In this document: piece by piece, positions 5,285 to 20,728 of the stretch
Layout: the number at the start of each line of letters is the position of its first letter
Position numbering within the stretch: the stretch's first letter is position 1
DNA from: Faecalibacterium hattorii
GTDB lineage: Bacteria; Bacillota; Clostridia; Oscillospirales; Ruminococcaceae
Length of the DNA stretch: 64,000 nucleotides
Assembly: GCF_003287455.1 (NCBI RefSeq)
Contig: NZ_PRLC01000001.1
Span: 186,001 to 250,000, forward strand
Direction: 5' to 3'
Made by a program: the position numbers and the translations under genes
Notes under the pieces: generated by a model
The model's input: the letters and a program-made list of their open reading frames with translations, nothing else
Told to the model about the DNA's origin: nothing
Databases searched by the model: none

Positions 5285-6601
5285 CTACCGAATGTTTACA
5301 ATAAATTCCTTACTTTTCGCTACACAAATTCCATTTTTTATAATAAAGCATTGCACTGAATGTGTTCCTTTATACAAAGTGCTTTCCCTCTTCCCATCAA
5401 ATCCCTCATTGGATGGTTCAAAATTTCCTCGTAAGCAATTTGCCATTGTAGCTTCTTGCCCAGTATTCACAACTTGCCATATAACGCTATATGGTCGCTT
5501 TACTCCAGTTAATGCCCGAAAATGCAATGTGCATCTTTTTTCAAGTGGGATATCGTTGCTTATATACTCAACATCGCTTCCATCTGCTGCAGTCACTCTT
5601 AATGTTATAAAAGCAGCTCCACCACGCTGCATAGGCCATCTTGGCTTTTCCTTATAAGGTGCGAATATACAGCTGTATACATTATTAACGCTTGAGCATG
5701 CAATAGCCTTGCAGCCTTCTTTGGGGAATTCATCTCCTAATATTTTTCTCCATGTATCATTTTCTGTTCCTTCATCGTTTAACATTGAAACATGCTCACT
5801 AAGTTTATCTATAAAATTAGAAAAATCTGTTGTACTATACCCGGCCAGCAGATCATTGCCCTCAATTTTTTCTGATGGGTCACTTATAGTTGGATTCACT
5901 CCGGCATCTGCATAATCTTCTTTATATGCAGCTACTATATTTTGCATTGTTGCAATAAGAAAATCTTCTGTTCCAAGAGATGAATCTCCCAAATTATCTG
6001 CTATGATTTTTTCTAGTGTAATTCCTTTGGGATATTTAATATCCTCTGGACAATTTGTCTGACGCCACCACTTAAATATTTTTACAAGTGGTTTATATTT
6101 TTTATTATGTTCTTTGTTGACTGTAGTAGACCACACTTTATGACCTTTAGGATCAGTTTTTGTCCATTCTCCTGTATTAGAATCCCCAATATAATACACT
6201 TCCTCATCATCTTGATCAGAGATAACTGGAACAACATCTATTGACAGTCCGCCCATCTCAATTCCAACAGAATGCGATTGAATTGTTGCTGAATTATAAT
6301 TCGCATTTTGAATCAAGACATCTTTTAACTCACTTATTACTTTCTTGGAATCATCTGTCATCTCATAAGATGTCACAACTATAATGTCCACATCTCTCTT
6401 TTTCCCTTTAGATGTGGGTCTAATAGATGTATGTTTTGCGTATGAACCGGACAAAAATGTATCTACATGTATTTTTTTATAAGTATCATGATTCTTCAGA
6501 TAATCCCTCAATGTACTTTGCAAACTGCTAATATATGCCACTGTTGTACTACTCGGTTCGATTTCCGACAAGAAATTATTGAAATCCCGCTGTTTCGCCA
6601 T
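5285..6601 (-). CDS. CD-NTase: SMODS nucleotidyltransferase with C-terminal AGS-C sensor domain
   Basis: This 438-residue protein of the cGAS/DncV-like nucleotidyltransferase superfamily would make a cyclic or linear oligonucleotide signal, as in CBASS anti-phage systems. The fold's signature is present: GS at 52-53, DVD with metal-binding Asp70 and Asp72, and the third acidic residue Asp122 in LSIDVVPV. The C-terminal part (about 300-438) matches the AGS-C sensor domain I know from Burroughs-type conflict systems, with the pattern LHFRALTGVKRPYSVIWQVVNTG. The start has an AAGGAAAG site. It is the last gene of the operon, 13 bp after the DUF6602-like gene, which is the candidate effector. It looks clearly AT-richer than the core genes. 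Product nucleotide and trigger are unknown. Confidence 0.85.
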   Translation of the reverse strand: MAKQRDFNNFLSEIEPSSTTVAYISSLQSTLRDYLKNHDTYKKIHVDTFLSGSYAKHTSIRPTSKGKKRDVDIIVVTSYEMTDDSKKVISELKDVLIQNANYNSATIQSHSVGIEMGGLSIDVVPVISDQDDEEVYYIGDSNTGEWTKTDPKGHKVWSTTVNKEHNKKYKPLVKIFKWWRQTNCPEDIKYPKGITLEKIIADNLGDSSLGTEDFLIATMQNIVAAYKEDYADAGVNPTISDPSEKIEGNDLLAGYSTTDFSNFIDKLSEHVSMLNDEGTENDTWRKILGDEFPKEGCKAIACSSVNNVYSCIFAPYKEKPRWPMQRGGAAFITLRVTAADGSDVEYISNDIPLEKRCTLHFRALTGVKRPYSVIWQVVNTGQEATMANCLRGNFEPSNEGFDGKRESTLYKGTHSVQCFIIKNGICVAKSKEFIVNIR

Positions 6602-6614
6602 AGTCTTTCCTTTC

Positions 6615-7352
6615 TTATGGATGTTGATGAACTTCTATCTTTTGCGCATACGCATTATAATCAATTGCTGGTACGGTTCCTATTTCCTGCAATTTTCCCA
6701 AAACTTTCAAAAGAAAATATACAAGTGATTTTGACTTGTCGCAGTAACTTATTGTCTTATCCCCTCGATCACATACAAAAGTTCCTGCTGCCACACAGCA
6801 TATCATATCAAGCCTTTTCAACTCGTTTTCAGATAGGTTGTTTGCAATGTTATCTATAGTACTCGATTCTGCCCAGTCAGATGTTGTTGTTAATAGTCCT
6901 GCAACAATTTTGTGTAGTGGTTTAGGGTCATATTTTCCTCCTGCGTGCTTTATTGCCACTGATGTCCGTTTTAATTTTCTTACACTTTCTGTCTTATGTT
7001 GGGCATATTCCATATAGCCTTTGTTTAGGCTTTGCTTTACTTCAAAAACTGCATATACGCTTTCCGCTGGAATCAAAAATGTTTCATTGTGTTTAAGCAC
7101 CAGATATGAGTACTGTCTATCGTAAATGATTACATCTATTTGTTCGCTTTCGTTCCCATCTGCATCAATTACAACTCCTTTGGCAACAGCATATCTATTC
7201 GGAAGATATGCCATTAGCCACTCTCTCCAATTATCTTCTGTGTCGTCCCCTTTCATTCCAGGATGCATCAATACTGATGCGCCAGTCTTTAGCCCTGCTT
7301 CCATTTCTTGTTGCATTCCATCATACAGTTTTCCAAGATCAACACTCGGCAT
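6615..7352 (-). CDS. DUF6602-like protein with PD-(D/E)xK nuclease-like core; candidate effector of the CD-NTase
   Basis: The 245-residue protein is soluble, with no signal peptide or membrane segment. The N-terminal half has a W-R-E-W-L helix (42-46), the segment LPNRYAVAKGVVIDADG, then QIDVIIYD with Asp73 and VYAVFEVK with Glu104 and Lys106. D...ExK on consecutive strands is the usual reading of a PD-(D/E)xK nuclease core, and the overall pattern is what I recall for the DUF6602 family. The C-terminal half is unassigned. It sits 24 bp after hsdR and 13 bp before the CD-NTase, so it is co-transcribed with both. Its role could be effector of the CD-NTase signal or an accessory to the type I system; the sequence does not settle which. 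Confidence 0.6.
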   Translation of the reverse strand: MPSVDLGKLYDGMQQEMEAGLKTGASVLMHPGMKGDDTEDNWREWLMAYLPNRYAVAKGVVIDADGNESEQIDVIIYDRQYSYLVLKHNETFLIPAESVYAVFEVKQSLNKGYMEYAQHKTESVRKLKRTSVAIKHAGGKYDPKPLHKIVAGLLTTTSDWAESSTIDNIANNLSENELKRLDMICCVAAGTFVCDRGDKTISYCDKSKSLVYFLLKVLGKLQEIGTVPAIDYNAYAQKIEVHQHP

Positions 7353-7376: not shown

Positions 7377-10300
7377 TCAAAGCATCTTGGTTCCAATCCC
7401 AAAGAACTTGTCAAAGAAGCTCTTCAGCTTATCGATTACACCCTGCTTCTTCTGTGCACGGCCACCGCCGCCGAAACGGGAAACAGGCGGCATCAGCTTG
7501 TCAATATCAGTGCCAACAGTCTTGATCTCACCATCCCGGAACGCATTGGCCAGATACTTGCGCGTTTCCGGCTCCTTCAGCTTTTCCTCTTGGATGATCT
7601 TTGTAAGCTCTTTCTCCCGCTGTTCGGACACATAAGTGTTCCACTCTGCCATCACGTCATCCACATCGTTGACACCTGCAATAAAGGTTTCAATCAGCTG
7701 CTTTTTGCTGCGCAGTTCCGGGCTGGCATCAATCGCCTTGCGAATCGTGATGAGCACCTCTTTGTCATCGCAATGGGTGTCATGGTACTTTTTGACCAGC
7801 ATCAGGATGTAGTCAATGTTGATTTCGACCTGCCGAATCAGCTCCACCTCAAACACCACATCATCGGTGATGTCCTCTTTGGTTTCATCATGCTTCTTGT
7901 TGCGCCATTCATCCCGCAAATCCTGATAGCGGCCCAAATAGTCCTGTAGATCCCGTTCAGAGATCAGTTCGTTGCCCTTGAAATCATCAAAGGAGGACAG
8001 CAGGTTCCGCATCCGCAGCAGTGCGCCAAACAGCACGATAAAGTCCTTCTGGTTCTGCTCTCCGACGATCTGCGGCTCTGTCAGCGGGAACTTCTGTGTC
8101 AGGTCATCGATCATGTCGGTGTAACCCTGATGGTATTTTCCCTGCTCATCCGTATAGCCGTGGTAATAGTCTGCATATTTGCGCAGCAGAACGATGCCGC
8201 CCGCATTTTTATCTCCAAACAGCGAAATTGCCGCATCCACCCGCTTTTGCAGGTTGCGGAAGCAGACGATATTGCCAAAGGTCTTGATGCTGTTCAAGAT
8301 ACGGTTCGTCCGGCTGAACGCCTGAATCAGGCCGTGCATCTTCAGGTTCTTGTCCACCCAAAGGGTATTCAGGGTCGTGGCATCGAAGCCCGTCAGGAAC
8401 ATATTGACCACGATCAGCAGGTCAAGCTCTTTATTTTTCATGCGGAGCGATACATCTTTGTAGTAGTTCTGGAACCGTTCGCCATCGGTCGAGTAGTTCG
8501 TATGGAACATCTCGTTGTAATCCTGAATGGCGGCATCCAGAAAATCCCGGCTGCTCTGGTCAAGGTTGGAGGTATCTTCCGGGTTTTCCTCGTCCAGAAT
8601 GCCATCCGTTTCCGCTTCGTTGGCTCCATAGCTGTAAATGGTAGCAATGCGCAGCCGCTTGGTTGGGTCTGCCGCCATCTGCTTTTTGAACTCCTGATAA
8701 TACAGCTTTGCCATTGGCACAGATGCTACGCAAAAAATCGAATTAAAACCGCTGACGCGCTGTTTTTGCTTGATTTCCTCCACCGCACCACGCTGGGCAG
8801 AGGCCACCTCTGCCACATTCGTCAGCAGATTAAACTCATACGATTTGTCTCCCCGATAGGTTTTCTGGTCGAAGTGGTCAAGGATGTACTTTGTCACCAG
8901 AGAAATACGCTTGGGAGCCATGAATGCCTTTTCCCGGTCAATGTCCCAAACCTGTTTATCGTCCATGTCCGGCTCTGCATCCATCGTCTTGATGTAATCC
9001 ACACGGAACGGCAGCACATTCTTGTCGTTGATGGCATCCACAATGGTGTAGGTATGCAGTGGTAGAACCTTTTCGCCTTTTTCATTTGGTTCACCGCCAA
9101 ACAACTGAGGCGTTGTCCTCATACCGGGTTTTCCGCTCGTACCCGCATTTGCTGCGTAAATCGGTGTTCCGGTAAAACCGAACAGGTAGTACTTTTTGAA
9201 GTTGTGAACGATAGCACCGTGCATATCACCGAACTGGCTGCGGTGGCACTCGTCAAAGATGATCACAACGTGCTTCTGGTAGACCTCATGCCCCGGATTT
9301 TTCTTGATGAAGGTCGCCAGCTTCTGGATGGTGGTAATGATGATATGTGCTTCCGGGTTTTCCAACTGGCGTTTCAGAATCGTGGTGCTGGTGTTGGAGT
9401 TTGCCGCGCCCTTCTCGAAGCGGTCATACTCTTTCATAGTCTGGTAGTCCAAATCCTTGCGGTCTACCACAAACAACACCTTGTCGATGTAGGGCAACTG
9501 CGATGCCAGCCGTGCCGTTTTGAAGGAGGTCAGCGTCTTGCCGGAGCCAGTGGTGTGCCAGATGTAGCCGCCGCCCTCGATGCTTCCATACTTTTTGTAG
9601 TTGTTGGCGATCTCGATGCGGTTCAATATCCTCTCGGTTGCCGTGATTTGATATGGGCGCATCACCATCAGCATCTTTTCTGAGGTAAAAATGCAGTACC
9701 GGGTCAGCACGCTCAGGATCGTGTGCTTTGCAAAGAATGTCCGGGTAAAGTCGATCAGATCCGTCAGCACGCGGTTGTTCGCATCGGCCCAGTAGGAGGT
9801 AAATTCAAAGCTATTGCTGGTCTTTTCCTTTTTCGTCTTGCCGTGTTTGGCATCCTTGATGGCATTGTAGCGGGTGCTGTTGGAGTAGTACTTGGTATTT
9901 GTGCCGTTGGAGATCACAAAAATCTGTACATACTCATACAAGCCGCAGCCCGCCCAGAACGAATCCCGCTGGTAGCGGTTGATTTGGTTGAACGCCTCTC
10001 GGATGGCCACCCCGCGCCGCTTCAGTTCCACATGAACCAGCGGAAAGCCGTTGACCAGAATCGTCACATCGTAGCGATTATCATGCCGTGCGCCGTCTGC
10101 TTGTTTTACCTCATACTGGTTGATGACCTGCAGGCGGTTGTTATGGATGTTCTTCTTGTCGATCAGCGTGATATTTTTGGAACTTCCATCATCCCGGTGC
10201 AATACCTGCACATTGTCTTCCTGAATCTTCCGGGTCTTTTCGGGAATATGCTCGTTGGGGTTGGCAATTACATCACTGAAAAACTGCCGCCACTCCGTAT

Positions 10301-10535
10301 CGGAAAACTGGTAGTGGTTCAACTCTTCCAGTTGGCTGCGGAGGTTAGCAATCAGTTCATCCTCGGTATGCAGCGGCAGATAGGTGTAGCCCTGCTCGCA
10401 CAACAGCCGGATAAACTCTTTCTCCAGTTCTGCCTCGCTCTGGTAGCTGTCAGAGCGCACCTTGGAGGGTTCATAGGCAGCAACAACGGTATCCTCATTG
10501 GTAGCCGCAACGATATTGAAAAAGGACATTTTCAC
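7377..10535 (-). CDS. hsdR: Type I restriction enzyme, R subunit (HsdR)
   Basis: The motor and nuclease subunit of a type I restriction-modification complex has 1052 residues, near the EcoR124I HsdR length. The PD-(D/E)xK nuclease is visible as Asp156 with ELK at 170-172, followed by a QxxxY-like QINRY. The SF2 helicase follows, with Walker A GSGKT (330-334), DECH (428-431) and a VNMFLTGFD segment in the second RecA lobe. A C-terminal helical region should bind HsdM. Translation may begin at GTG 10535 or at ATG 10529; the AAAAGG site fits either. It lies nine bases after the GIY-YIG gene, which separates it from hsdS. With HsdM and HsdS it cuts unmethylated foreign DNA after ATP-driven translocation. 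Confidence 0.96.
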   Translation of the reverse strand: MKMSFFNIVAATNEDTVVAAYEPSKVRSDSYQSEAELEKEFIRLLCEQGYTYLPLHTEDELIANLRSQLEELNHYQFSDTEWRQFFSDVIANPNEHIPEKTRKIQEDNVQVLHRDDGSSKNITLIDKKNIHNNRLQVINQYEVKQADGARHDNRYDVTILVNGFPLVHVELKRRGVAIREAFNQINRYQRDSFWAGCGLYEYVQIFVISNGTNTKYYSNSTRYNAIKDAKHGKTKKEKTSNSFEFTSYWADANNRVLTDLIDFTRTFFAKHTILSVLTRYCIFTSEKMLMVMRPYQITATERILNRIEIANNYKKYGSIEGGGYIWHTTGSGKTLTSFKTARLASQLPYIDKVLFVVDRKDLDYQTMKEYDRFEKGAANSNTSTTILKRQLENPEAHIIITTIQKLATFIKKNPGHEVYQKHVVIIFDECHRSQFGDMHGAIVHNFKKYYLFGFTGTPIYAANAGTSGKPGMRTTPQLFGGEPNEKGEKVLPLHTYTIVDAINDKNVLPFRVDYIKTMDAEPDMDDKQVWDIDREKAFMAPKRISLVTKYILDHFDQKTYRGDKSYEFNLLTNVAEVASAQRGAVEEIKQKQRVSGFNSIFCVASVPMAKLYYQEFKKQMAADPTKRLRIATIYSYGANEAETDGILDEENPEDTSNLDQSSRDFLDAAIQDYNEMFHTNYSTDGERFQNYYKDVSLRMKNKELDLLIVVNMFLTGFDATTLNTLWVDKNLKMHGLIQAFSRTNRILNSIKTFGNIVCFRNLQKRVDAAISLFGDKNAGGIVLLRKYADYYHGYTDEQGKYHQGYTDMIDDLTQKFPLTEPQIVGEQNQKDFIVLFGALLRMRNLLSSFDDFKGNELISERDLQDYLGRYQDLRDEWRNKKHDETKEDITDDVVFEVELIRQVEINIDYILMLVKKYHDTHCDDKEVLITIRKAIDASPELRSKKQLIETFIAGVNDVDDVMAEWNTYVSEQREKELTKIIQEEKLKEPETRKYLANAFRDGEIKTVGTDIDKLMPPVSRFGGGGRAQKKQGVIDKLKSFFDKFFGIGTKML

Positions 10536-10544
10536 ACCCGCCTT

Positions 10545-11225
10545 TTACTCATACAAACCTGCTTCTTCTCGTTCCACTCGAATATCTCGCAGTTTTCTTC
10601 CCTGATAAAGCCAATGCACCGGCCCTTGTAGCGGATAGGTCGTCTGCATGATTTTTTGAGCCAACGCAGAAAGCGAGTAGGTTTTACCCTGATACTCAAT
10701 TTGCCGATCATCTTTTACAACGGCTACAACCTCAGGATGATTTTGCAGCACGATCTCTGCCCCCATCGGAATACCGCATTTAATAAATGAGAACGGGGCT
10801 TTGCGTTCTTTTGCTTCTTCCTGAATTTCAGCCGCAACTTCTTCGTCTGCAATCTCATGGCCTTCCGGGGTAAGGCGCTGCAGTTTGTCCATTGTGCCGC
10901 TTAATTTTGCAATGCTCTCCAAAAGCGCATAAGCATCCTCTTTTGTCATTGCATAAAACTCTTTTGTTCTTGTCTTGCCATCGAACGTATCAATAGCGCG
11001 CAAATCAGGATTCAAACGGTCGATCAGGCTATGCAGTTCTTTATCTTGTAGCGGAGTTGAAACATCGTAAGTAGCATATACCCGAAACGCAAATGGGATG
11101 CACTCGCTTCGATTTAACTGTTTCAGTCGATTCTCGATATTGGTCGCATAGCCAATTTTTACATAATCCGGGAAAGAGGGATTTGTCAGGATATAAATTA
11201 CACCAGCTTTTTTTGCTGCACTCAC
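10545..11225 (-). CDS. GIY-YIG domain protein with a possible RAMA/DUF4357-type C-terminal domain
   Basis: The 226-residue protein opens with a GIY-YIG-type module: GVIYILTN at 8-15 and VKIGYATNIENRLKQLN at about 22-38, the T5orf172/MUG113-like version. The last 80 residues read IPMGAEIVL...YQGKTYSLSALAQ...GPVHWLYQGRKLRDIR, a pattern like the RAMA or DUF4357 modules found in modification-linked proteins; this assignment is tentative. Its GTG start overlaps the stop of the HsdS half gene by four bases (GTGA), and hsdR begins nine bases after it, so it is translationally coupled into the type I operon. A nuclease or sensor of modified bases is plausible, but nothing in the sequence proves it. 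Confidence 0.7.
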   Translation of the reverse strand: MSAAKKAGVIYILTNPSFPDYVKIGYATNIENRLKQLNRSECIPFAFRVYATYDVSTPLQDKELHSLIDRLNPDLRAIDTFDGKTRTKEFYAMTKEDAYALLESIAKLSGTMDKLQRLTPEGHEIADEEVAAEIQEEAKERKAPFSFIKCGIPMGAEIVLQNHPEVVAVVKDDRQIEYQGKTYSLSALAQKIMQTTYPLQGPVHWLYQGRKLRDIRVEREEAGLYE

Positions 11226-11818
11226 GTTGCAGCCACCTCCTTAAACGTCAACAATTTATCTCGATAATATTCATACTGCTTTTGTCTTGCTTCAATCTCT
11301 GCGGGCAGGCCACTTGTCAAGTCATTACAGATTGCATCAAAGCGGTCAAGAATAGAAACAATTCGCTTCTGTTCCTCAATAGACGGTACTGCAATTACAG
11401 CCTTTGCTATATTGTCGTTGTACAATCTCGGAATCGTTCCGCCCTCAGATGCTTTCCACGGTTTCAGTTCATAGCAGTAGCGAAGATAGCTATTCAAAAC
11501 AATACTTTCATCATTATCAATCCAAACGATGTTAGAATCTTGGAAGTATGCAGGCTTCCCATCATAAACAACTGTTCTGCCAATCGTTCCCGCCGCAGAA
11601 ATCAGCACATCGCCTTTTTTCGGAAAATTATACTTCGACCGATATTCGTCAAATGTTTCCTGTGAAATATAGGCATCAGCTTCTTTTCCAAAGGTTCCAA
11701 TTTTATAGAACGGAACACCGCTCACCGTATTTGTCTGGCTCTTCAAAATACGCTTACACATACAGATAGAGCCAATATCACCTAAAGAGATTCTCACATA
11801 GCCAAACACATACTGCAA
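11222..11818 (-). CDS. Half HsdS: third target-recognition domain plus conserved region, out of frame with hsdS
   Basis: This frame encodes one target-recognition domain (TRD) followed by a conserved HsdS coiled-coil ending [19 protein letters not shown]. It closely resembles the second half of the neighbouring hsdS protein but has a different TRD. The frame is open through the short gap to the repeat tract (Leu-Ile-Lys-Leu-Leu before residue 1), and its only start near the 5' end is a TTG at 11818 without a good ribosome-binding site. It therefore looks like the detached third part of hsdS, not a normal gene. With 17 or 14 repeat units in the tract at 11831-11910 it would be fused in frame to hsdS (626 or 621 residues). 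In the present state it is expressed poorly, by reinitiation, or not at all. Confidence 0.8.
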
Positions 11819-11822
11819 GAGC

Positions 11823-13097
11823 TTAATCAGTGCTCTGCTCTGCTCTGCTCTGCTCTGCTCTGCTCTGCTCTGCTCTGCTCTGCTCTGCTCTGCTCTGCTC
11901 TGCTCTGCTCAAAATTGTGTTACCAGTTTCTGCAAATGTCAAGAGCTTATCTCGGTAATACTCGTACTGCTTCTGCCGGGCTTCAATCTCAGCAGGCAGG
12001 CCAATATTGAGGTCGGAGCAAATCTTCTCAAAGTTGTCCAGTACATTCACAATGCGTTTTTGGACATCAAGGGGCGGAACGGGCACAGGGAAAGCATTCA
12101 GCATAGGTCTACGAATAGACGCAACCGAACCTTGGAACATCGTTTTCTGGATATACGGCAGGAATTTTGCTTTCATGTAATGGAAATAATATTTAGACAT
12201 AACTTCTGGCGTATTGATGTGAATGCGGTATGCCCGCTGATGCAGCGCATATTTTCCTTCAATATAATGATATACCTTTCCGACGCCCACACCATCACCC
12301 GCCGTTATAATGGCTGTTTCATCATACTCATAATCATTCTTTCGCAACGGCTCCTGAGAGCGAACAAAAAACGGATATTTGCCATCTTCCACCGCCTCGT
12401 TTGTATTACTACTTCCCGTCCCAATGTCCGCTATATCTGCCAGTTGCACAATTTTTGTGTTAGCGTGAAATGTCAACAGCTTATTTCTATAGTAACTATA
12501 CTGTATGCCTCTAGCAGTAAGTTCCGATGTAAGTTCCGATGTAAGATTTGTGAAATTGTCCAAAATGCGAACAATTTCACGCTGAATTTCTAGTGGTGGA
12601 ATTGGTATCATTAGCCTTGAAAAAAGTGTTTGTGTTAAGTGACTAATTGTCGAACCTGTTTTCTGTTGCTCAACAACACTTTGAAAATGATTAGACAACA
12701 GATAGTGCAGAATGAACCGATTCTCTAACGAACCATCTTTACAGCGAACAACAAAGACTCCACCATTTAATGTAGCTGGCATTTCAAGCCCCTTTACTTG
12801 CGCTACTTTACCAAGAGTTCCATCTTTGGTTATTAGGATATCTCCATTTTTCAATTGAATTTTCAGGTCTTGCTTGTATCGTTCTTCCGTCACATATACA
12901 CAGGTACTATAATCAATTTCATGTGTTTCAGTAAAGTCAGTTCCTGTTATAAGCAAGTAGTCGCCTTTGCTCATATACTCTGCTTTCGTTAGCCGTTGCC
13001 AGCCAATTCGAGCATTTAATGTGCAAACTTCATCGAATCTTTTATACTCAACGCCATCCGGACAAAGCTCCCGGAGCAGTTCATCTAGCTTACTCAT
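11823..13097 (-). CDS. hsdS: Type I restriction enzyme specificity subunit HsdS (two TRDs, repeat-encoded tail)
   Basis: The specificity subunit selects the bipartite DNA target of the HsdM2S and HsdR complexes. The chosen start is ATG 13097, whose frame overlaps the upstream stop (ATGAGTAA); this gives 424 residues. TRD1 (about 10-175) is followed by a central conserved region with the duplicated TSEL TSEL segment and [12 protein letters not shown]2 (about 210-355) is followed by the second conserved region ending [13 protein letters not shown]. Residues 397-424 are SRAEQ repeated five times plus STD, wholly encoded by 16 copies of a 5-bp unit. Since five is not a multiple of three, repeat slippage changes the C-terminal reading frame. 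The TSEL pair occupies the place of the TAEL repeats in EcoR124-type HsdS, which set the spacer length of the target. Confidence 0.93.
11831..11910 (-). repeat. Perfect pentanucleotide tract, 16 x TGCTC (GAGCA on the coding strand)
   Basis: Eighty bases consist of 16 uninterrupted 5-bp units at the 3' end of hsdS. With 16 units hsdS ends in Ser-Thr-Asp-stop (424 residues). With 15 or 18 units it ends at TGA 11829-11827 (about 421 or 426 residues). With 17 or 14 units it reads through into the third HsdS half. Long perfect tracts of this kind slip during replication, so the locus is a contingency switch. Confidence 0.93.
12519..12542 (-). repeat. 12-bp tandem duplication encoding TSEL TSEL in hsdS
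   Basis: AAGTTCCGATGT occurs twice head to tail and encodes a four-residue repeat in the central coiled-coil. In EcoR124-type enzymes the copy number of the equivalent TAEL unit sets the length of the nonspecific spacer in the recognition sequence. Confidence 0.8.
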
Positions 13098-13956
13098 CCG
13101 CACCCTCTTCTTTCTTTGCAATATAGGTACTGTACAGTGCCATCACCGCATAATAATACATATCTTCCTGTGTTTCGATCAAATCTTCATCGAAAATAAT
13201 ATCTTCTTCTGATTTAGCAAATACCCGGCAACAGTCAATAACGATTCGCATCGTCCAGTATGTCATTATTTCTTCTGGGCATCCAGCTAAATCACATTGC
13301 AACCAAACCATATCAATTGGTGGCTGCAGTAGCCATTTGGATTTTCCCAAATCTGCGGAGTGAAGGTAATCATACATATATCCGTATAGCGTTCCGTTAT
13401 AGCTCGTGTCTTTTAATAATTGGAGTGAATCACCTTGATAAAAGTGTGTTCGCCTTATGTCCTCAAATATGTACGGGTTTACGGTTTCAATTTTTTCATC
13501 CGAATAACGCTCCATCGCTCGATAAAAGTATTTAGCCCCATCATATAAAGTATCTTGTCCAAAACCGCACGCCTTAATATCATCTTTTAGTCGTTTTAAT
13601 GCAGCACTCACCTGTTCTTTAGAAACCTCTATTGGCTGAAAATTGGCTTGCTTCAGAATTTCCTTTTGGACTTCCTCACTACATCTTAAAAACTTAGTCG
13701 TTATCACTCTATGATGCTTTCTTTTGAGATTCAGGCTTTTTGCAATCGCTGACAACGGCAAGTATTCTATTTCATCTTCATTATCAATCAGAAAAACTCT
13801 TGCCGCTTCAGCAACAGCTTTTTTCTGCGCCTCCACTTCCATTTGCTCACGTTCTTTTTCATGTGAGCGCTGTAGCCAATAGATTGCAACTGTCAATACA
13901 ACTGTTGCAATCTATGAGAGCACATCCACTACGAAACTCCAAATCTCAAGGCTCAT
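13090..13956 (-). pseudogene. Membrane-anchored hypothetical protein, interrupted by an in-frame TAG
   Basis: An ATG at 13956, two bases after the RhuM-family stop and behind AGAGTAAAG, opens a frame reading MSLEIWSFVVDVLS, then TAG (13914-13912), then IATVVLTVAIYWLQRS and a further 260 residues. Joined, the two parts make a natural N-terminal transmembrane helix followed by a basic stop-transfer, a coiled-coil (about 30-50) and a soluble domain of unknown function. The stop therefore looks like a recent nonsense change. A TTG at 13896 could restart translation without the first half of the helix (268 residues). The stop codon lies in one arm of a perfect 12-bp inverted repeat (13879-13890 and 13904-13915). 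The gene sits in the type I operon between the RhuM-family gene and hsdS. I do not recognise the soluble domain. Confidence 0.7.
13879..13915. repeat. 12-bp perfect inverted repeat spanning the in-frame TAG
   Basis: ATAGATTGCAAC (13879-13890) and GTTGCAATCTAT (13904-13915) are perfect complements around a 13-nt loop. The TAG of the interrupted gene is part of one arm. Confidence 0.75.
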
Positions 13957-13958
13957 CT

Positions 13959-14987
13959 TTACTCTAGGTTTTCCTCCAAATACCTGTCAAAATCGCTCTG
14001 GTACAGCCGATCCTGCACCACACGGTACTTTTCAAACTCCGTTTCGGCGTGCATTTTTGCAAGCTGCGCCGAGATTTTGCCTGCATCCCTCAACACTTCC
14101 AGATCATCTGCCTGCAAATAGATGTCCAGCCGCTTGGCCCAGTCCTCCATGGTCATGGGGATATGACGGCGGGCACGGTTCTCGGCAAGGTCAAGGTATG
14201 CCGAAACAATCAGCTCCATGGACTTCATTTCATCTTCGGTCAGATAGTTTTTCGCCACCGAAACATCGCTCTTTTTAATTTTGCCGTTGGGAGCGTCCTT
14301 CCATGTGTGAAGCCCCATGTGCGGCTTTTCGGCATCGGCACGCTCATAGATCAGCTCTGCCGCCGTATGGCGATGCACGGCATAGTGCATCTTATTCTGC
14401 ACCTTTGCAAAGAACTCTTTTGTGGTCAGCGCGTTGCGGTCATAATCCAGCGAAGTAGCGTAAATATCAGTGAGTTTCTGGTAGAAGTTGCGCTCCGAAA
14501 TGCGAATTTCCCGGATACGCTCCAACTGCTCTTCAAAGTATTTCTTGGTCAGGACTGTGCCACCGTTTTTCAGGCGTTCCTCATCCATAGCCCAACCCTT
14601 GATGGTATACTGCTCCACGATCTGGTTCGCCCAGACACGGAACCGCACCGCCCGCTGGTTGTTCACCTTGAAGCCGACCGCAATAATTGCCTGTAAGTTA
14701 TAGTGGTTCGTGTTGTACTTTTTTCCGTCCGTGGCAGTTATTAAGTATTTCTTAATAACTGCTTCTTCCTGCAATTCCCCATCCTCAAAAATCTTTTTCA
14801 GGTGCTGGTTTATCGCTGCGACAGACACATCGTAAAGGGTCGCCATCATCTTTTGCGTCAGCCAGATGTTTTCATCCTCGTAGCGCATCTCGATGCTGTC
14901 CTTATCCTCCCCCGTGGAGGCAACAAAGGTCAAATATTCCGCCGCAGAAGAACGTACCAACGCAGAATCATTCTTTTTGTTTTCCAT
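13959..14987 (-). CDS. RhuM-family protein (type I restriction operon accessory)
   Basis: The chosen start, ATG 14987, lies one base after the hsdM stop with GAGGG upstream, and gives 342 residues. The N-terminal part (about 30-140) has IWLTQKMMATLYDVSVAAINQHL, a predicted helix-turn-helix, then the NLQAIIAVGFKVNNQRAVRFRVWA motif that defines the RhuM (virulence-associated) family, also seen in Fic/DOC-linked and KilA-N-like proteins. The C-terminal half is helical, without a motif I can name. RhuM genes commonly lie between hsdM and hsdS or hsdR in type I loci; their biochemical role is not established. Here it is translationally coupled to hsdM, so it belongs to the restriction cassette. 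Confidence 0.88.
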   Translation of the reverse strand: MENKKNDSALVRSSAAEYLTFVASTGEDKDSIEMRYEDENIWLTQKMMATLYDVSVAAINQHLKKIFEDGELQEEAVIKKYLITATDGKKYNTNHYNLQAIIAVGFKVNNQRAVRFRVWANQIVEQYTIKGWAMDEERLKNGGTVLTKKYFEEQLERIREIRISERNFYQKLTDIYATSLDYDRNALTTKEFFAKVQNKMHYAVHRHTAAELIYERADAEKPHMGLHTWKDAPNGKIKKSDVSVAKNYLTEDEMKSMELIVSAYLDLAENRARRHIPMTMEDWAKRLDIYLQADDLEVLRDAGKISAQLAKMHAETEFEKYRVVQDRLYQSDFDRYLEENLE

Positions 14988-14988
14988 C

Positions 14989-16551
14989 TCAGCCCTCGAT
15001 TTCTGCCACGATCTGGTCAATAGCAGCCCGCAGTTCGTTTTCTCGTGCTGCGATTTGCGCAATTTCAGCGTTCAGCTTCACAATGTCGATCTTCTCGCGG
15101 GTGTCCTTGGCTTCCACATAAGTGGAAACGGACAGATTGTAGTCATTTTCCTGCACCTCGGAATACTCCGCCAGATGGGAGAAGTGCGCTTCTTCTGCCC
15201 GCTGTGCAAAGGTGTCCACGATCTTATTGATGTTTTCCGGCGTGAGCTTGTTGTTGTTCGTCACCTTGACACACTCGGAAGAAGCGTCAATGAACAGCAC
15301 TTTATTATCCGTTTTACCCTTTTTCAGCACCATGATGCAGGTGGCAATACTGGTGCCGAAGAACAGATTGCTCGGCAACTGGATGATGCAGTCAATGAAG
15401 TTGTTGTCCACCAGATACTTGCGGATCTTCTGCTCTGCGCCGCCACGGTACATGATGCCGGGAAAGCAGACGATTGCAGCCGTACCGTTGGAAGCCAGCC
15501 ATGCCAGCGAGTGCATGATAAACGCTAAGTCCGCTTTGCTCTTCGGAGCCAGCACACCAGCCGGAGCAAAACGCGGGTCATTGATGAGCAGCGGATTCTC
15601 GTCACCGGCCCACTTGATGGAGTACGGCGGATTCGATACGATCAGCTCAAAGGGTTCATCATCCCAGTGCTGCGGATTTGTCAGCGTATCCTCACAGACA
15701 ATGTCGAATTTGTCAAACTCAATGTCGTGCAGGAACATATTGATACGGCACAGGTTATACGTTGTGATGTTGATTTCTTGCCCAAAGAAGCCATTGCGCA
15801 CAGCGTCCCGTCCCAGCACCTTTTCTGCCTTCAGTAGCAACGAACCAGAGCCGCAGGCCGGGTCATATACCTTGTTGATTTCCTTCTTGCCTACCGTACC
15901 CAGCCGGGTCAGCAACTCCGAAACATCGGCAGGCGTAAAGAACTCGCCGCCGGACTTGCCCGCATTGCTGGCGTACATGGTCATCAGGTATTCGTAGGCA
16001 TCGCCAAAAGCATCAATGTCATGCTCTTTCACATCTCCAAGGTTCATATCTGCTACGCCGTTCAGCAGCTTCACGAGCTTTTCATTGCGTTTGGCAACGG
16101 TCGCGCCCAGCTTGTTGCTGTTCACATCGTAATCATCAAACAGCCCTGCAAACTGTCCCTCAGAGGAGCTGCCCTTTGCGGATTCCTCAATGTGCCGGAA
16201 CACCGTTTCCAACGTTTCATTGAGGTTTTCATCGCTGGCCGCTTTTGCCCGTACATTGCAGAACAACTCACTGGGCAGGATGAAGAACCCTTTTTCCTGT
16301 ACCAGCCCTTCCCGTGCCTGCTCTGCCTCTGCATCAGGCATATCCTCATAGCGGAAGTCCGGGTTGCCTGCATCAATTTCGCCCTGATTGATGTAGCTGG
16401 CAATGTTCTCCGAAATATAACGGTAGAACATCGTACCGAGAACGTAGCTCTTGAAATCCCATCCGTCCACTGCGCCGCGCAGATCATCCGCTATCGCCCA
16501 GATTGCACGGTGCAGTTCTTCGCGTTCCTGTTCTTTTTTGGTGTCTACCAT
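14989..16551 (-). CDS. hsdM: Type I restriction enzyme, M subunit (HsdM, adenine-N6 methyltransferase)
   Basis: The methyltransferase subunit, 520 residues from ATG 16551, was chosen over the upstream ATGs because GGAGG lies eight bases before it. An N-terminal helical HsdM_N domain (about 10-135) is followed by a Rossmann-fold N6-adenine methyltransferase with SAM-binding motif DPACGSG (230-236) and catalytic NPPY (307-310). It also shows the family's GEFFTP and YGGAEQ-like ([10 protein letters not shown]) segments. It transfers methyl groups to adenines within the target selected by HsdS and is required for restriction as well. It is the first gene of the defense operon, read from a promoter in the divergent region at 16552-16836. 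All motifs are intact. Confidence 0.97.
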
Positions 16552-16612
16552 TTTTATTTCCTCCATCAAATGCGAATTTCCGCATTGTTTTCTTTCATTT
16601 TAACATAGTAAA

Positions 16613-16630
16613 TGTACCACTATTGGTACA
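16613..16630. promoter_or_regulatory. Palindromic operator-like site before hsdM
   Basis: TGTACCA-CTAT-TGGTACA has perfect 7-bp arms, about 60 bp upstream of the hsdM start and downstream of its likely promoter. A third GTACCA-like half (GTACCA, 16687-16692) overlaps the promoter. No dedicated C-protein gene is adjacent, so the binding protein is unknown. Confidence 0.55.
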
Positions 16631-16683
16631 CCATGGTGTTTTTCCCAAAAAGGATATACTTTCCCTTTATACTATCCTAGTAA

Positions 16684-16712
16684 AGCGTACCACAGCTTTT
16701 CCGTGATTGCAA
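16684..16712 (-). promoter_or_regulatory. Probable hsdM operon promoter
   Basis: Minus strand TTGCAA (16712-16707), 17 bp, TACGCT (16689-16684). It would drive the run from hsdM to the CD-NTase. Confidence 0.5.
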
Positions 16713-16729
16713 GCCGATAAAAATTTCTA

Positions 16730-16758
16730 TTGCATTTTTCGGCGAGATAGTGTACACT
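16730..16758 (+). promoter_or_regulatory. Promoter of the HYT-motif gene
   Basis: TTGCAT (16730-16735), 17-bp spacer, TACACT (16753-16758). It is back to back with the hsdM promoter about 20 bp away. Confidence 0.6.
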
Positions 16759-16836
16759 TTTTTCAATCTTGTCCACTGTCTGTATCTCGGACGGAGTTTC
16801 GTATCGTCAAACACCTGTGAACTGAGAGGAAAGCCA

Positions 16837-17379
16837 ATGAAAGCGAAAAAGACCAAACTGCCCGAAAATCTGTATCATTACACCAGCCTCATCAAGTATC
16901 GGATGATTCTTGCAACTGGGAAACTGCTTCTGACACCTTCCAATCTGAAATATGACAACGCCACGCTCCATGACGAACCACTCTTTTTTAATGGGCAGAA
17001 AATTGGTTATAAATCCGTTGACAAATATGAAAACTATCATCCTGTCGTCTGGCTGACTGCCAATGACCATGCCGGTGCAAAAAACACCGGTCTGTCCAAC
17101 GACAAAATCATGTGCCGCATTACCATCAAGACCAATGGTAAAATCTGGCGATATCTGCCTTGGCGCACTTTCTGCGACAAGTACAACGCTGACCGCAGCG
17201 TTGCCTCAACCCTCAAACAAACTGCTAATGACTACCTGAACTGGTATGTCTGTGAATCTGAGATTCCAGTTGCGGACTTTGCAAAGGTCGAGTTTCTGGC
17301 TGAAGATGGCACCTACAAAGACGAGAAGGACATTCCCGGATTTGCTCTGACGGATATTGCCCCGGAGCTTTTTGAGTAA
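16837..17379 (+). CDS. Hypothetical protein with HYT motif, possibly ADP-ribosyltransferase-like
   Basis: ATG 16837 with AGAGG upstream gives 180 residues. The protein begins LPENLYHYTSLIKYRMILATGKLLLTPSN (His14-Tyr15-Thr16). An HYT or HxT followed by an IL..G.L segment is the usual first motif of DarT/DUF2971-like ADP-ribosyltransferase folds. A later VWLT strand and a CESEIPV (ExE) segment could supply the other active-site positions. This is pattern reading only; the family is not certain. It is a lone plus-strand gene facing away from the type I operon, with its own promoter, inside the mobile element. A toxin, antiphage effector or modification enzyme are all possible. Confidence 0.5.
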   Translation: MKAKKTKLPENLYHYTSLIKYRMILATGKLLLTPSNLKYDNATLHDEPLFFNGQKIGYKSVDKYENYHPVVWLTANDHAGAKNTGLSNDKIMCRITIKTNGKIWRYLPWRTFCDKYNADRSVASTLKQTANDYLNWYVCESEIPVADFAKVEFLAEDGTYKDEKDIPGFALTDIAPELFE

Positions 17380-17436: not shown

Positions 17437-18711
17437 TTACAGCTCTATGCTGTTCTGCCTGTTCTTCTTCTGGCTCCTATCTGTGGTCTGCTCCTGCTCC
17501 CTCATAAACCCAATGACCTGCTGCATCTTTTCGGCACCGAAATAGTTCCATACTCGCCTGAAATCACGTTTCATCGCATAGAGCTGCGAATTCTCAGCTT
17601 TTACCTGTTCCAGCTGCTGGCTCAAATGGCGGGTAGCCTTCTTCTCGTCCTGATAGAAGTGCAGATACTTATCCCTCTCGTTCTTAACCTCCCAGTACTT
17701 CCGATGGAGGGCAAAAAGTACCTTCACCAACTTCTGGATCAGCGGCATGGCCTTTTTCTCCCGGTAACTCTTGGCGGTCTCAAACGTGGCTGCTTCTGGC
17801 ACCCATTCCTCCGGCCGCTGGGAGTACTGCGCTGACAGGTTTTCCAGCCCCTCCATGATGGGAGCCAGCTTGTTCAGCTTCTGGCTCTGCTTCTGGTAGG
17901 TCAACTCTGCTTTCTGTACCCGCTGTTCAGCGGCTTCTACGGCTGTCTGCGCTGTTTCCAGCTGTTCCTGCATCTCGGTCAGGTCGGTCTGGCACTCCTG
18001 CTTGGCAGCTTCCAGAGCCACCACCTCTTTACTACGCTCCCGCTTCTTGAAGTCCAGCACAGACAGGTGCTCTTCGTGGGTGCCTTTCTGTTCCCACTCG
18101 ATGCCGTGCCGCTCCATCACGGCAGCAAGCTGCTCTTTCTCGGCGTTGATCCACTGGTTCAGCTCGGATTCTCTCTTGGAGCCGCCTGCAAAGCCCAAGG
18201 CCTTCAGAGCCTGCTTCAGGGAGACCTTGGTGTCCAGTCCTTTGCCTTTCCAACCGGACACATACGGCACGAAGTCGATGTGCAGATGGGGCGTGGCTTC
18301 GTCCATGTGGAGGAAAGCCCCGAACACCCGCAGTGTCGGGTTCCGCTCTTGGAAGCCCTGCATATACTCGTCCAGCAGTTCCTTTGCCAGTGCGCCATTC
18401 TCGGTCAAGACACCCATATCATCTTTGTTGCCGATCTGGACGATCAGCTCATGGAAAAGCTTTTCCTGCTTGCCTGTCCGCAGGTGCTCATAGTAGTCGG
18501 TGATACAGCGGTCCTTGCGCTTCTGCTTGGCATTGTAACGCTTCACTGCCTCGTCAAACAGTTCGTGGTACACCTTCTGAATCGGCTCATCCCGGTACAC
18601 GACATTCAGGCTGCTGCGCTTCGGGTCTACGTTTTCAGCGGTGAAACTTCTCCGGTTATGGTTGAGGGAGCCGGGACCCCGCATTGCGGAAATGGTTCTT
18701 TTCAATCGCAC
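17437..18711 (-). CDS. MobV-family relaxase (Mob/Pre)
   Basis: This 424-residue DNA relaxase would nick oriT and pilot the single strand during conjugative mobilization. The N-terminus (MRGPGSLNHNRR) and the metal-binding motif HMDEATPHLHIDF, an HxDExxPHxH, define the MobV/Pre family. The second half is a long coiled-coil (about 225-290 and 340-385). The start is GTG 18711 or TTG 18705; a GAGAAAGGA site lies just upstream and favours the second by spacing. The element carries no type IV secretion genes, so transfer would depend on a helper. The gene lies directly downstream of the oriT-like hairpin at 18759-18779. Confidence 0.9.
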   Translation of the reverse strand: MRLKRTISAMRGPGSLNHNRRSFTAENVDPKRSSLNVVYRDEPIQKVYHELFDEAVKRYNAKQKRKDRCITDYYEHLRTGKQEKLFHELIVQIGNKDDMGVLTENGALAKELLDEYMQGFQERNPTLRVFGAFLHMDEATPHLHIDFVPYVSGWKGKGLDTKVSLKQALKALGFAGGSKRESELNQWINAEKEQLAAVMERHGIEWEQKGTHEEHLSVLDFKKRERSKEVVALEAAKQECQTDLTEMQEQLETAQTAVEAAEQRVQKAELTYQKQSQKLNKLAPIMEGLENLSAQYSQRPEEWVPEAATFETAKSYREKKAMPLIQKLVKVLFALHRKYWEVKNERDKYLHFYQDEKKATRHLSQQLEQVKAENSQLYAMKRDFRRVWNYFGAEKMQQVIGFMREQEQTTDRSQKKNRQNSIEL

Positions 18712-18754
18712 GTCCTTTCTCTGTGGAAGTAACTGGTGCCGGACACGGCAATGG

Positions 18755-18800
18755 CTTTGTTACTTTCGTCGAAAGTAACGCAAAAGCACTTTTGACAGAC
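18755..18800 (-). other. Probable origin of transfer (oriT) of the element
   Basis: GTTACTTTCG-T-CGAAAGTAAC (18759-18779) is a perfect 10-bp inverted repeat with a single-base loop, followed by GCAAAAGC. It lies about 50 bp upstream of the MobV relaxase gene in a 247-bp stretch with no convincing gene, the usual place for a MobV oriT. The nick site itself cannot be fixed. Confidence 0.6.
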
Positions 18801-18958
18801 GTTCCGTCCATCAAAAGATGCCTTTGCGCCCTGCCGGGGGCTTCCGTCTGCGGACTGGGTTTCGCTGTACCTCGCCGCTGCCCGGTCCAACACCACCTTC
18901 CTGCGTGATTGCATTCACAGGAGCGTGACACGCTCCTGTCCTCTACCAATAGAGGGAC

Positions 18959-19204
18959 TCACCAGCGGAAGCTTTCTGGCACGCCTCGTCTGTCCAGATA
19001 CTCCTGCCGAGCCTGCTCCCGTTGTTCCTCGGTGGGCGCCGTCTTGTACTGGGCATACAGCTCATGCCGCAGCATCGCATCCAGTTTTTGCTCCAAACCC
19101 TGTTCAATAACTTCTTCGTACTCATTTTCGCCGCTCAAATGATAATGCAGCAAGGCGACGAAAAGTTCCTGCGAAATTTGCACATTTTTCATCATTATCA
19201 CCAT
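18959..19204 (-). CDS. Small conserved protein of mobilizable elements, function unknown
   Basis: This frame of up to 81 residues ends in the segment TAPTEEQREQARQEYLDRRGVPESFRW. I recognise it from Clostridial conjugative and mobilizable elements, where it is often labelled complexin-2-like without functional support. It is acidic and helical with no membrane segment. Start codons at 19204, 19195 and 19192 are possible; the MKNVQIS start (19192) matches relatives as I remember them. It lies between the RepA-like ATPase gene and the oriT region on the same strand, so it belongs to the mobilization module. Role unknown. Confidence 0.7.
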   Translation of the reverse strand: MVIMMKNVQISQELFVALLHYHLSGENEYEEVIEQGLEQKLDAMLRHELYAQYKTAPTEEQREQARQEYLDRRGVPESFRW

Positions 19205-19277
19205 CCCGTGTCGGTTGTGTCGATTGTGACGATATTTTATATAGTAGCAAAAATACCGTCACAACCGTCACGAATCG

Positions 19278-20408
19278 TCACGCCCCAGAATTTTCCAGCG
19301 TCAATTTGACCTCTCTGCCCTCATGGGTGCGCCTGCTTTCGTACCGAATTCCATAATCGTTGTAGAGCCTGTCGGCACTCACGTTCAGCTTCCGGGTCAG
19401 GATGTTTGCCTGTATGCTCACACCCGGCAGACGTTCCAGCAGCTCCGTGGGCGTACCGCTCCACTCTGGCTGTTCCGGGCTGAGCATCTTTGCCACCGCT
19501 TCCAGAAGCGGGTCGGGCGGCAGCTTCCAGAGTTCCGTTTCGGCTCCTTGGAACTCCCACACGCAGCGTTCCCGGTTGAACTCCAACGTCAGCTCCTGAT
19601 CTGGCTGATCACGCCCCACGATGTCCAGCAGGGCGGTATTGTCCGTGCGCCGCTTCTTCTGCATGATGAATGCTCCATCCGCTGCACCCAGCAGGCCATT
19701 GGTGCCGGAGATCATGTCGAAGCTATCCTCGGCTTCCATCTTCCGGGTGTGGTGAACCACCAGCAGGCAGATGCCATACCTGTCGCTGAAGGCTTTCAGT
19801 TTGGTCACGATCTCGTAGTCGCTGGCGTAGCTGTATCGGTCACCGCCGATCTCCCGCACCTTCTGCAGGGTGTCGATGATGATGAGCCGTACATCCGGGT
19901 GCTCCCGGATGAATCCTTCCAACTGCTGGTCAAGTCCCTCGCTCACGGACTTAGCTTGCGTTGCGAAGTAGAGATTGCTGGTCTCCTCTACCCCGAACAT
20001 CCGGGAGAGCCGCCGCTGCAGCCGGGCGTAATCATCCTCCAACGCCAGATAGAGGACGGTGCCTTGATGCACCTCGTACTCCCACAACGGAAGCCCCATC
20101 GCCACATGGTAGGCGAGCTGCCCCATGAAGAAGGACTTGCCCACCTTGGGCGCACCTACGAAGAGGTAGGTGCCACTGTACAGCAAGTCGTTCACGATGG
20201 GCTTCCGGGGTGGATACACCGTGTCGTACAGTTCGGTCATTGATACCGTGTTCAGCCCGAAATTGTTTGACTTTTTCGCGGCTTGCAGATTGATTTGCTT
20301 GCCCGAATTTGTTATAATATTGGTGTTGATTTTTGAGGACGACTGTACCGCATCTGCGCCAACAGATGCACCCGGTACGGTCGTTTTTCTATTGTCCGTC
20401 ATTCGCAT
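19278..20408 (-). CDS. RepA-like AAA/RecA-fold ATPase (replicative helicase type)
   Basis: The 376-residue protein has a RecA-fold ATPase core: Walker A GAPKVGKS near residue 86, Walker B LIIIDTL near 178, and VVHHTRK as a sensor-like segment. This pattern matches RSF1010 RepA-type hexameric helicases and the AAA_25 proteins carried by mobilizable elements. The C-terminal 90 residues look like a winged-helix domain. It overlaps the MobC-like gene upstream by ten bases and so is co-expressed with it. It may support autonomous replication of the excised circle, but no initiator or primase gene is visible, so this is an inference. Confidence 0.8.
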   Translation of the reverse strand: MRMTDNRKTTVPGASVGADAVQSSSKINTNIITNSGKQINLQAAKKSNNFGLNTVSMTELYDTVYPPRKPIVNDLLYSGTYLFVGAPKVGKSFFMGQLAYHVAMGLPLWEYEVHQGTVLYLALEDDYARLQRRLSRMFGVEETSNLYFATQAKSVSEGLDQQLEGFIREHPDVRLIIIDTLQKVREIGGDRYSYASDYEIVTKLKAFSDRYGICLLVVHHTRKMEAEDSFDMISGTNGLLGAADGAFIMQKKRRTDNTALLDIVGRDQPDQELTLEFNRERCVWEFQGAETELWKLPPDPLLEAVAKMLSPEQPEWSGTPTELLERLPGVSIQANILTRKLNVSADRLYNDYGIRYESRRTHEGREVKLTLENSGA

Positions 20409-20728
20409 TCCTCCTTAAGTCCGTTCAACGTCAGAGCCACCATTTGCAAGGTCTCCAGCAAGTCCGGTGGGACTTCTTCATCCACGGCCAGCCGCTGCAA
20501 TTCCTGATAGATCAGCTTCATCTGGTCTCGCAGGGCTTTGTAGACCCTTGGGTTGCCTACCACGGTGATCTCCCGGTCGGTCAAGCGGCGGATGATATAC
20601 TCCTGTTTGGTCAGCCCGGAGAGCTTTACTTTGGCTTCCAGAACCTCGTCCTCTTCCGGGGACATTCGGAAGGCTACCACCTTGTTCCGCCAGCGTCCTT
20701 GCTGGTCGAGCACTCGTTCCATTTTCAT
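20399..20728 (-). CDS. MobC-like relaxosome accessory protein
   Basis: This 109-residue protein contains a ribbon-helix-helix-like start (NKVVAFRMSPEEDEVLEAKVKLSGLTKQEYIIRRL), the usual N-terminus of MobC-type proteins that bind oriT and help the relaxase open the strands. The rest is helical. Its ATG overlaps the integrase stop by four bases (ATGA), and its 3' end overlaps the RepA-like gene, giving a tightly coupled int-mobC-repA block. The family call rests on pattern and context. Confidence 0.75.
   Translation of the reverse strand: MKMERVLDQQGRWRNKVVAFRMSPEEDEVLEAKVKLSGLTKQEYIIRRLTDREITVVGNPRVYKALRDQMKLIYQELQRLAVDEEVPPDLLETLQMVALTLNGLKEECE

Follow-up and report, generated by a model that had tools for sequence, protein, structure and literature searches.

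Can the length of a short tandem repeat decide how many target-recognition domains (TRDs) a type I restriction enzyme carries? A locus in Faecalibacterium hattorii raises this question. In the 64,000-nucleotide stretch analysed here (contig NZ_PRLC01000001.1, positions 186,001 to 250,000; 'the window', to whose own numbering all positions refer), hsdS, which encodes the specificity subunit, ends at an array of 5-bp units, and behind the array lies a further open frame for a third TRD (TRD3). A first-pass annotation had proposed that gain or loss of units fuses this third domain to HsdS. On the frame logic of the junction, the occurrence of both states in related loci, the conservation of the design and the selection on TRD3 in one pair of loci, we regard hsdS as probably a phase-variable type IC specificity gene, in which repeat slippage toggles between a two-TRD HsdS and a fused three-TRD HsdS.

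Repeat number and the reading frame of hsdS

The array consists of 16.0 copies of GAGCA with period 5 on the minus strand (TGCTC on the plus strand; Table 1), as perfect as it had been described, and it is the only site in the whole 2.79-Mb genome with at least four exact consecutive units. The gene runs on the minus strand from an ATG at 13097 to a TAA at 11825–11823, which gives the 424 codons counted by the first-pass annotation. When arrays of 0–23 units were read in silico, three outcomes cycled every three units. Counts of n = 1 mod 3 give a protein ending in ...STD* (424 residues at the present 16 units), and counts of n = 0 mod 3 give the immediate stop foreseen for 15 and 18 units (...H*, 421 and 426 residues). 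Only counts of n = 2 mod 3 fuse hsdS to the TRD3 frame, reading through to the stop at 11224–11222 with the predicted 621 residues at 14 units and 626 at 17. The TRD3 frame has no stop through the whole array and is thus, as claimed, open up to the repeat. Both hsdS and the downstream piece match the Pfam family Methylase_S, the 424-residue HsdS with two stretches.

Both states in Faecalibacterium

The genome collections that we searched hold one genome per species. Among the 31 genomes of the genus, three carry GAGCA arrays, and five have the switch when G012 and G001 are added. In F. prausnitzii APC923/61-1 (G015; loci L104, L046 and L011) the array has 11 units and hsdS is a single 620-residue open reading frame (ORF) with three Methylase_S stretches, a natural instance of the three-TRD protein that had been predicted for the window; in F. 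prausnitzii APC923/51-1 (G008; L103, L057) it has 10 units and is unfused. The first-pass annotation took an invariant unit count in deep reads and in all relatives to speak against a switch; the counts in these Faecalibacterium loci differ, being 16 (window), 11 and 10. The flanks of the arrays are close to those of the window (117/120 nt before and 30/30 nt after the array in L104, 110/120 and 29/30 in L103), and HsdM is 99% identical among the GAGCA relatives and the window, although their TRDs differ. G012 combines the TRD1 and TRD3 of the window with another TRD2 and has an AACGG array at the position of GAGCA, with an assembly break within the array. G001, whose HsdM is 77% identical, has a GACA version; elsewhere it has a normal two-TRD hsdS that lacks a repeat. 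The GAGCA version is scarce: it was found in three of 396 genomes of the family, one of them (L012) not at hsdS, and hsdS accounts for two of the 46 named contigs bearing GAGCA arrays.

The junction repeat beyond the genus

TRD3 begins with the motif IK-L-[LI]-QY-[VI]-FG or a near variant, and we sought relatives with a degenerate DNA pattern for it. The pattern found hsdS in four of 394 genomes of the order (five matches, one unrelated), in three of 393 of the class (one being the window's own), in 13 of 396 of a different family within the class, and in six of 15 matches in IMG/VR, the other nine not being hsdS. A wider motif gave three matches in IMG/VR, all unrelated and none in hsdS. Including the genus search, the pattern yielded 25 hsdS loci (24 distinct). 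In every one of the 25 the motif is immediately preceded by a short tandem repeat, the unit being GACA in 18, GAGCA in three, and GAAC, AG, ACGAGCA and ACGAACA in one each. The AACGG locus of G012, located via its HsdM, and an AAGC array of 35 units in a Fusobacterium vincentii record from a plasmid search bring the total to 26 distinct loci, from the same bacterial class, from viral-collection contigs and from one Fusobacterium. This total counts L118 and L138 once (1138/1138 identical), and outside it stand L162 and L183, in each of which a two-TRD hsdS runs into a GACA array where the contig stops, and three loci of another design described below (L273, L281 and L307). In the plasmid search (480 records), this Fusobacterium was the one record with the switch among the 10 matches listed; the other nine of those listed were Enterobacterales plasmid records that matched query residues 42–229 only.

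The eight repeat units have lengths of 2, 4, 4, 4, 5, 5, 7 and 7 bp, none divisible by three. The use of at least eight units at the same junction suggests that the switch is a design that has been kept, not a chance product. None of the seven units tested contains a start or stop in any frame. Past the array, both off-frames stop within eight codons in all 26 rows and within four in 25, whereas both do so within four codons at 8.3% of 9865 background codon positions. The frame could be read in 21 loci, six of which are fused (L104, L111, L130, L134, L139 and L142) and 15 unfused (the window, L103, L108, L116, L119, L120, L123, L128, L131, L132, L135–L138 and L143), near the one third expected for random counts; L132 was scored from 11 upstream codons. 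Outside these 21 are G012, L129, L133, L140 and L141, the upstream sequence of the last two being array only.

TRD3 as a probable working part

Between the window and G012, TRD3 is identical at 190 of 202 residues, with nonsynonymous and synonymous divergences (dN and dS) of 0.038 and 0.60 and a ratio of 0.063; the same pair gives ratios of 0.161 for the TRD1 half and 0.013 for HsdM. Judged from these substitutions, TRD3 is under purifying selection in this one pair with well-measured dS. Of the 15 TRD3 pairs with at least 55% identity, three more are unsaturated, with ratios of 0.126, 0.127 and 0.235.

TRD3 is intact (at least 151 residues) in 24 of the 26 rows, with diverse sequences, and Methylase_S was matched by all 23 TRD3s scanned (L118, the cut L119, L134 with its 21 codons and the later-found L143 were left out). 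All five complete fused proteins (L104, L111, L130, L139 and L142) hold three Methylase_S stretches in one ORF, a composition that the window would have at n = 2 mod 3 only and not in its present state. TRD families are common to the positions: of 24 TRD3 cores, 15 reach 50% identity or more with a TRD1 or TRD2 core from a different locus, as with the window TRD3 and the TRD2 of L111 (68.5%). In that comparison the TRD1 of L123 was ignored (truncated contig) and that of L103 was too short, having been cut from a late ATG. The fold predicted for TRD3 by AlphaFold2 (mean predicted local distance difference test, pLDDT, 82.1) matches solved HsdS chains, including EcoR124.

Several points weigh against such a switch. 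We saw no slippage event, and the differences in unit number are between species representatives. The off-frame stops derive partly from common sequence, so the rows are not independent. Stop-free units are a weak sign alone, because 81%, 76% and 69% of all 4-, 5- and 7-mers are free of stops when repeated, and a claim on lengths has only eight units behind it. Moreover, dS is saturated in 11 of the 15 TRD3 pairs, in the fused locus L134 TRD3 spans 21 codons only, and the AlphaFold2 model of the fused L104 HsdS (13 rows) is poor (pLDDT 57.6) and silent on TRD pairing.

A proposed mechanism

Replication slippage is an established source of unit changes in simple sequence repeats (SSRs), and here it would alter the count of a short tandem array. 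Two thirds of the counts would leave a complete two-TRD HsdS (TRD1 + TRD2), while one third (in the window, n = 2 mod 3) would append TRD3 and its dimerisation helix as a third half-subunit. In the HsdS rows of our printed alignments, TRD1 is followed by a helix of the TAEL type, and TRD2 and TRD3 each by one of the C-terminal type; since TRD1 alone has the TAEL-type helix, TRD3 of the fused protein could pair with another TRD, most simply TRD1, and fusion would thereby offer TRD1 a second possible partner. The enzyme would in this way gain or exchange a bipartite target site. The TRDs of type IC enzymes and their helices are described as interchangeable, and separately expressed halves as able to reassemble (PMC3874165). 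We infer that slippage occurs within a clone, that the fused protein is active with its TRDs so paired, and that its methylome changes.

Other readings of the repeat

The alternatives to a specificity switch do not all exclude it or one another. It is unlikely that the fused protein is instead an off or dampened state, in which the extra half-subunit misfolds or blocks assembly with HsdM and HsdR and the repeat switches activity. SSR-switched on/off expression has precedents in the hsdM of H. influenzae and in type III mod genes (PMC7394358), and the poor model of the fused protein says little either way; a mere plug, however, would need neither purifying selection on TRD3 nor TRD families common to positions 1 and 2, and a three-TRD HsdS of H. 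pylori is active (PMC3936762).

About as unlikely is that re-initiation yields TRD3 as a separate half-subunit in the unfused state, so that the repeat toggles a tethered and a free TRD3. Half-subunits do function in type IC enzymes (PMC3874165), and a promoter-like motif precedes the array. The first-pass annotation held that the downstream half has no good start of its own. In the window the earliest candidate of the TRD3 frame is a TTG, 4 nt 3' of the TAA, and 20 of 26 rows have an in-frame ATG, GTG or TTG between the array end and +18 of the TRD3 motif. In the other six (L129, L131, L133, L139, L141 and L142) that interval holds none, and an own start is therefore no conserved feature.

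We give still less credence to polarity, by which the unfused state leaves about 600 nt untranslated and lowers expression of the downstream T5orf172 and hsdR genes, which fusion restores. Counted from the end of the TRD3 stop, the next start is at –4 in five rows (the window, L103, L104, L133 and L140), and in many loci the next ORF resembles the start of the window HsdR (in our reading of the ORFs rather than a profile scan). On the other hand, 13 of the 21 rows with a next ORF have it 12–25 nt after TRD3, 11 of these with a Shine–Dalgarno-like sequence, and polarity leaves the selection on TRD3 unexplained.

It is very improbable that the repeat is incidental and TRD3 a decaying remnant or a silent recombination cassette, for although TRDs are shuffled among loci and the TRD3 of L134 is truncated, the ratio of 0.063 against G012 speaks against decay, TRD3 keeps its length in 24 of 26 rows, none of the eight junction units has a length divisible by three, and positions 10500–17000 contain no inverted pair of at least 24 nt. 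The last result also rules out an inverting (SpnIII-like) hsdS locus, which resembles the window in switching type I specificity.

Relation to known systems

As the first-pass annotation stated, repeat-driven switching of type I specificity is known. The nearest such switch is the polyG tract of the type IC system NgoAV of N. gonorrhoeae, where slippage inside hsdS toggles a shorter and a fused HsdS (PMC9577141). The window shares with NgoAV an SSR in the coding region whose unit is not divisible by three and which alters HsdS length. The systems differ in that the short form of NgoAV is a truncated HsdS of 208 residues and fusion produces the longer form recognizing GCAN7STCA (PMC9577141), whereas the short form in the window is a complete two-TRD HsdS, not a one-TRD half-subunit, and fusion produces three TRDs; the tract of NgoAV is a homopolymer, and the units of the loci described here are 2–7 bp long. 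An NgoAV-like arrangement is seen in L273, L281 and L307, where an AAGC array follows the first TRD and its helix, which is the NgoAV position with a tetranucleotide instead of polyG. The second TRD-like frame behind the array continues in frame in L281 but is shifted in L273 and L307.

HsdS proteins with three TRDs have been described (PMC3936762; PMC3077401). JHP1422 of H. pylori (M.Hpy99XV) has three consecutive TRDs in one S subunit and methylates two sites, via TRD1 + TRD3 and TRD2 + TRD3 (PMC3936762). Two of its TRDs are identical, which is ascribed to duplication, whereas the three TRDs here differ, and the section on JHP1422 in that paper describes no repeat switch. A 2020 REBASE survey (Atack, FASEB J) is quoted as finding SSRs in 7.9% of hsdS genes (PMC7394358), and a 2025 paper credits it with three-TRD HsdS proteins (PMC12429846). 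In the literature searched, which did not include the 2020 survey itself, we found no description of a repeat-switched third TRD. The novelty claimed at first is only partly borne out, the NgoAV switch and the three-TRD HsdS of H. pylori being published. What the locus would add is a repeat at the TRD2–TRD3 junction that toggles a complete two-TRD and a three-TRD enzyme.

A promoter-like sequence before the arrays

The sequence TTGACA-17-CACAAT, 3 nt before the array, is the best promoter-like match in 10300–13300, an interval with eight such matches, close to the shuffled mean of 6.1 (standard deviation 2.4). Among the 16 hsdS loci whose upstream gene can be read, 14 have TTGACA at the array-adjacent spot and all 16 have TTGAC there; at the equivalent codons TTGACA occurs in two of 16 after TRD1 and in two of 23 after TRD3. 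The promoter score is at least 9 of 12 in 14 of 20 hsdS rows and below 9 in six. Against a promoter, L128 lacks TTGACA and scores 5 of 12, and the AAGC arrays of L273, L281 and L307 score 4–6.

Arrays elsewhere often have the same neighbour. In the loci of the GAGCA scans, 30 of 50 arrays of at least five units score 9 or more (two hsdS contigs were excluded and one array with too little upstream sequence was skipped). Of 202 distinct arrays in the retrieved loci, 84 have TTGACA starting 29–35 nt upstream; it occurs elsewhere in the 100 nt upstream in 11, and on the other side in 12 in all. By unit, TTGACA at 29–35 nt is found with 51 of 101 GACA, 20 of 38 GAGCA, seven of 46 AAGC and four of 13 AACGG arrays. 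Scores of at least 9 are reached by 48 of 108 GACA arrays outside hsdS among the matches listed (random positions 1.8%, other side 2%), by 11 of 50 AAGC arrays and by three of 17 AACGG arrays. Many arrays are homologous, so these counts overstate their independence.

Some GACA arrays lie mid-gene in IMG/VR contigs, in PAPS-reductase-like genes (L165, L174 and L213) and C5-methyltransferase genes (L220 and L244); four of the five are in frame, L174 is not, and these genes, as read from the contigs, are apparently switchable. GAGCA arrays stand just after promoter-like sequences in L016 (66 units), L026, L028, L045, L052 and contigs of termite-gut metagenome-assembled genomes such as L024 and L029. 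They lie at contig ends or close to where other genes start, in bacteria that include Lactococcus and Streptococcus.

We tentatively suggest, though with more doubt than confidence, that hsdS exemplifies a general element: a sigma-70-like promoter TTGACA-N16-18-nAnnnT followed after a few nucleotides by a T-free repeat starting at the expected start site. The promoter-like part lies in unrelated coding genes (hsdS and the PAPS-reductase-like and C5-methyltransferase phage genes) and in intergenic DNA, and it would be selected as DNA, because the reading frame differs between hsdS and the C5-methyltransferase. Transcription initiation at the element may create the repeat, keep it mutable or express the downstream half.

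System type and gene context

HsdM (TIGR00497), HsdS (Methylase_S) and an EcoR124-type HsdR (EcoR124_C) are encoded together (Table 1). Because hsdM and this type of hsdR share the operon with hsdS, the system is, by its gene content, a type IC restriction–modification system. Among PDB sequences, the HsdS alignment matches the EcoR124 S subunit (7bst) best, and all 17 HsdS rows printed have at least one TAEL-like motif in D1.

Table 1. Features of the hsdS locus in window coordinates.
Feature	Position	Strand	Basis
hsdR, EcoR124-type	7377..10535	minus	family match
T5orf172/PDC-S57 gene, GTG start overlapping the TRD3 stop (GTGA)	10545..11225	minus	family match
Third-TRD frame including D2 helix, in frame with hsdS at n = 2 mod 3 only	11222..11830	minus	Pfam, fold match
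CTGATTAA, directly 3' of array, one stop per off-frame	11823..11830	minus	frame reading
hsdS at 16 units, TRD1-D1-TRD2-D2'-repeat tail, 424 residues + stop	11823..13097	minus	Pfam, two Methylase_S stretches
16 x GAGCA array, peptide SRAEQ	11831..11910	minus	repeat detection, in-silico translation
Promoter-like TTGACA-17-CACAAT, 3 nt before array	11914..11942	minus	promoter-match scoring
TRD2 region (approximate), residues 215–372	11982..12455	minus	our reading of the alignment
TRD1 region, residues 13–194	12516..13061	minus	best Pfam stretch
12-bp repeat x2.4, coding TSEL-type spacer in D1 (EcoR124 TAEL-like)	12517..12545	minus	repeat detection, alignment
hsdM, TIGR00497	14989..16569	minus	family match

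Between hsdM and hsdS (13090–15062) lie a RhuM-like gene and one without a family match. These intervening genes, like those between hsdS and hsdR (T5orf172 in the window), vary among the relatives L103–L107, as if they occupied cargo slots in the operon. Downstream of hsdR, at 5285–7352, is a pair like that of a cyclic-oligonucleotide-based antiphage signalling system (CBASS), a CD-NTase (SMODS) gene adjoining a NucC-like nuclease gene. The ORFs beside the operon at 17437–21801, which we take to be relaxase-like, replication-like and tyrosine-integrase-like, have similar counterparts in L103 and L104 and partly in L105, which suggests a mobilizable element.

Implications

The locus lends itself to testing how a third TRD acts in a type I enzyme. 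If a repeat-switched third TRD is indeed what it encodes, gut commensals such as Faecalibacterium would have a reversible means of widening or changing their restriction target, by which phage resistance, DNA uptake and the methylome might be altered while the basic two-TRD enzyme is kept.

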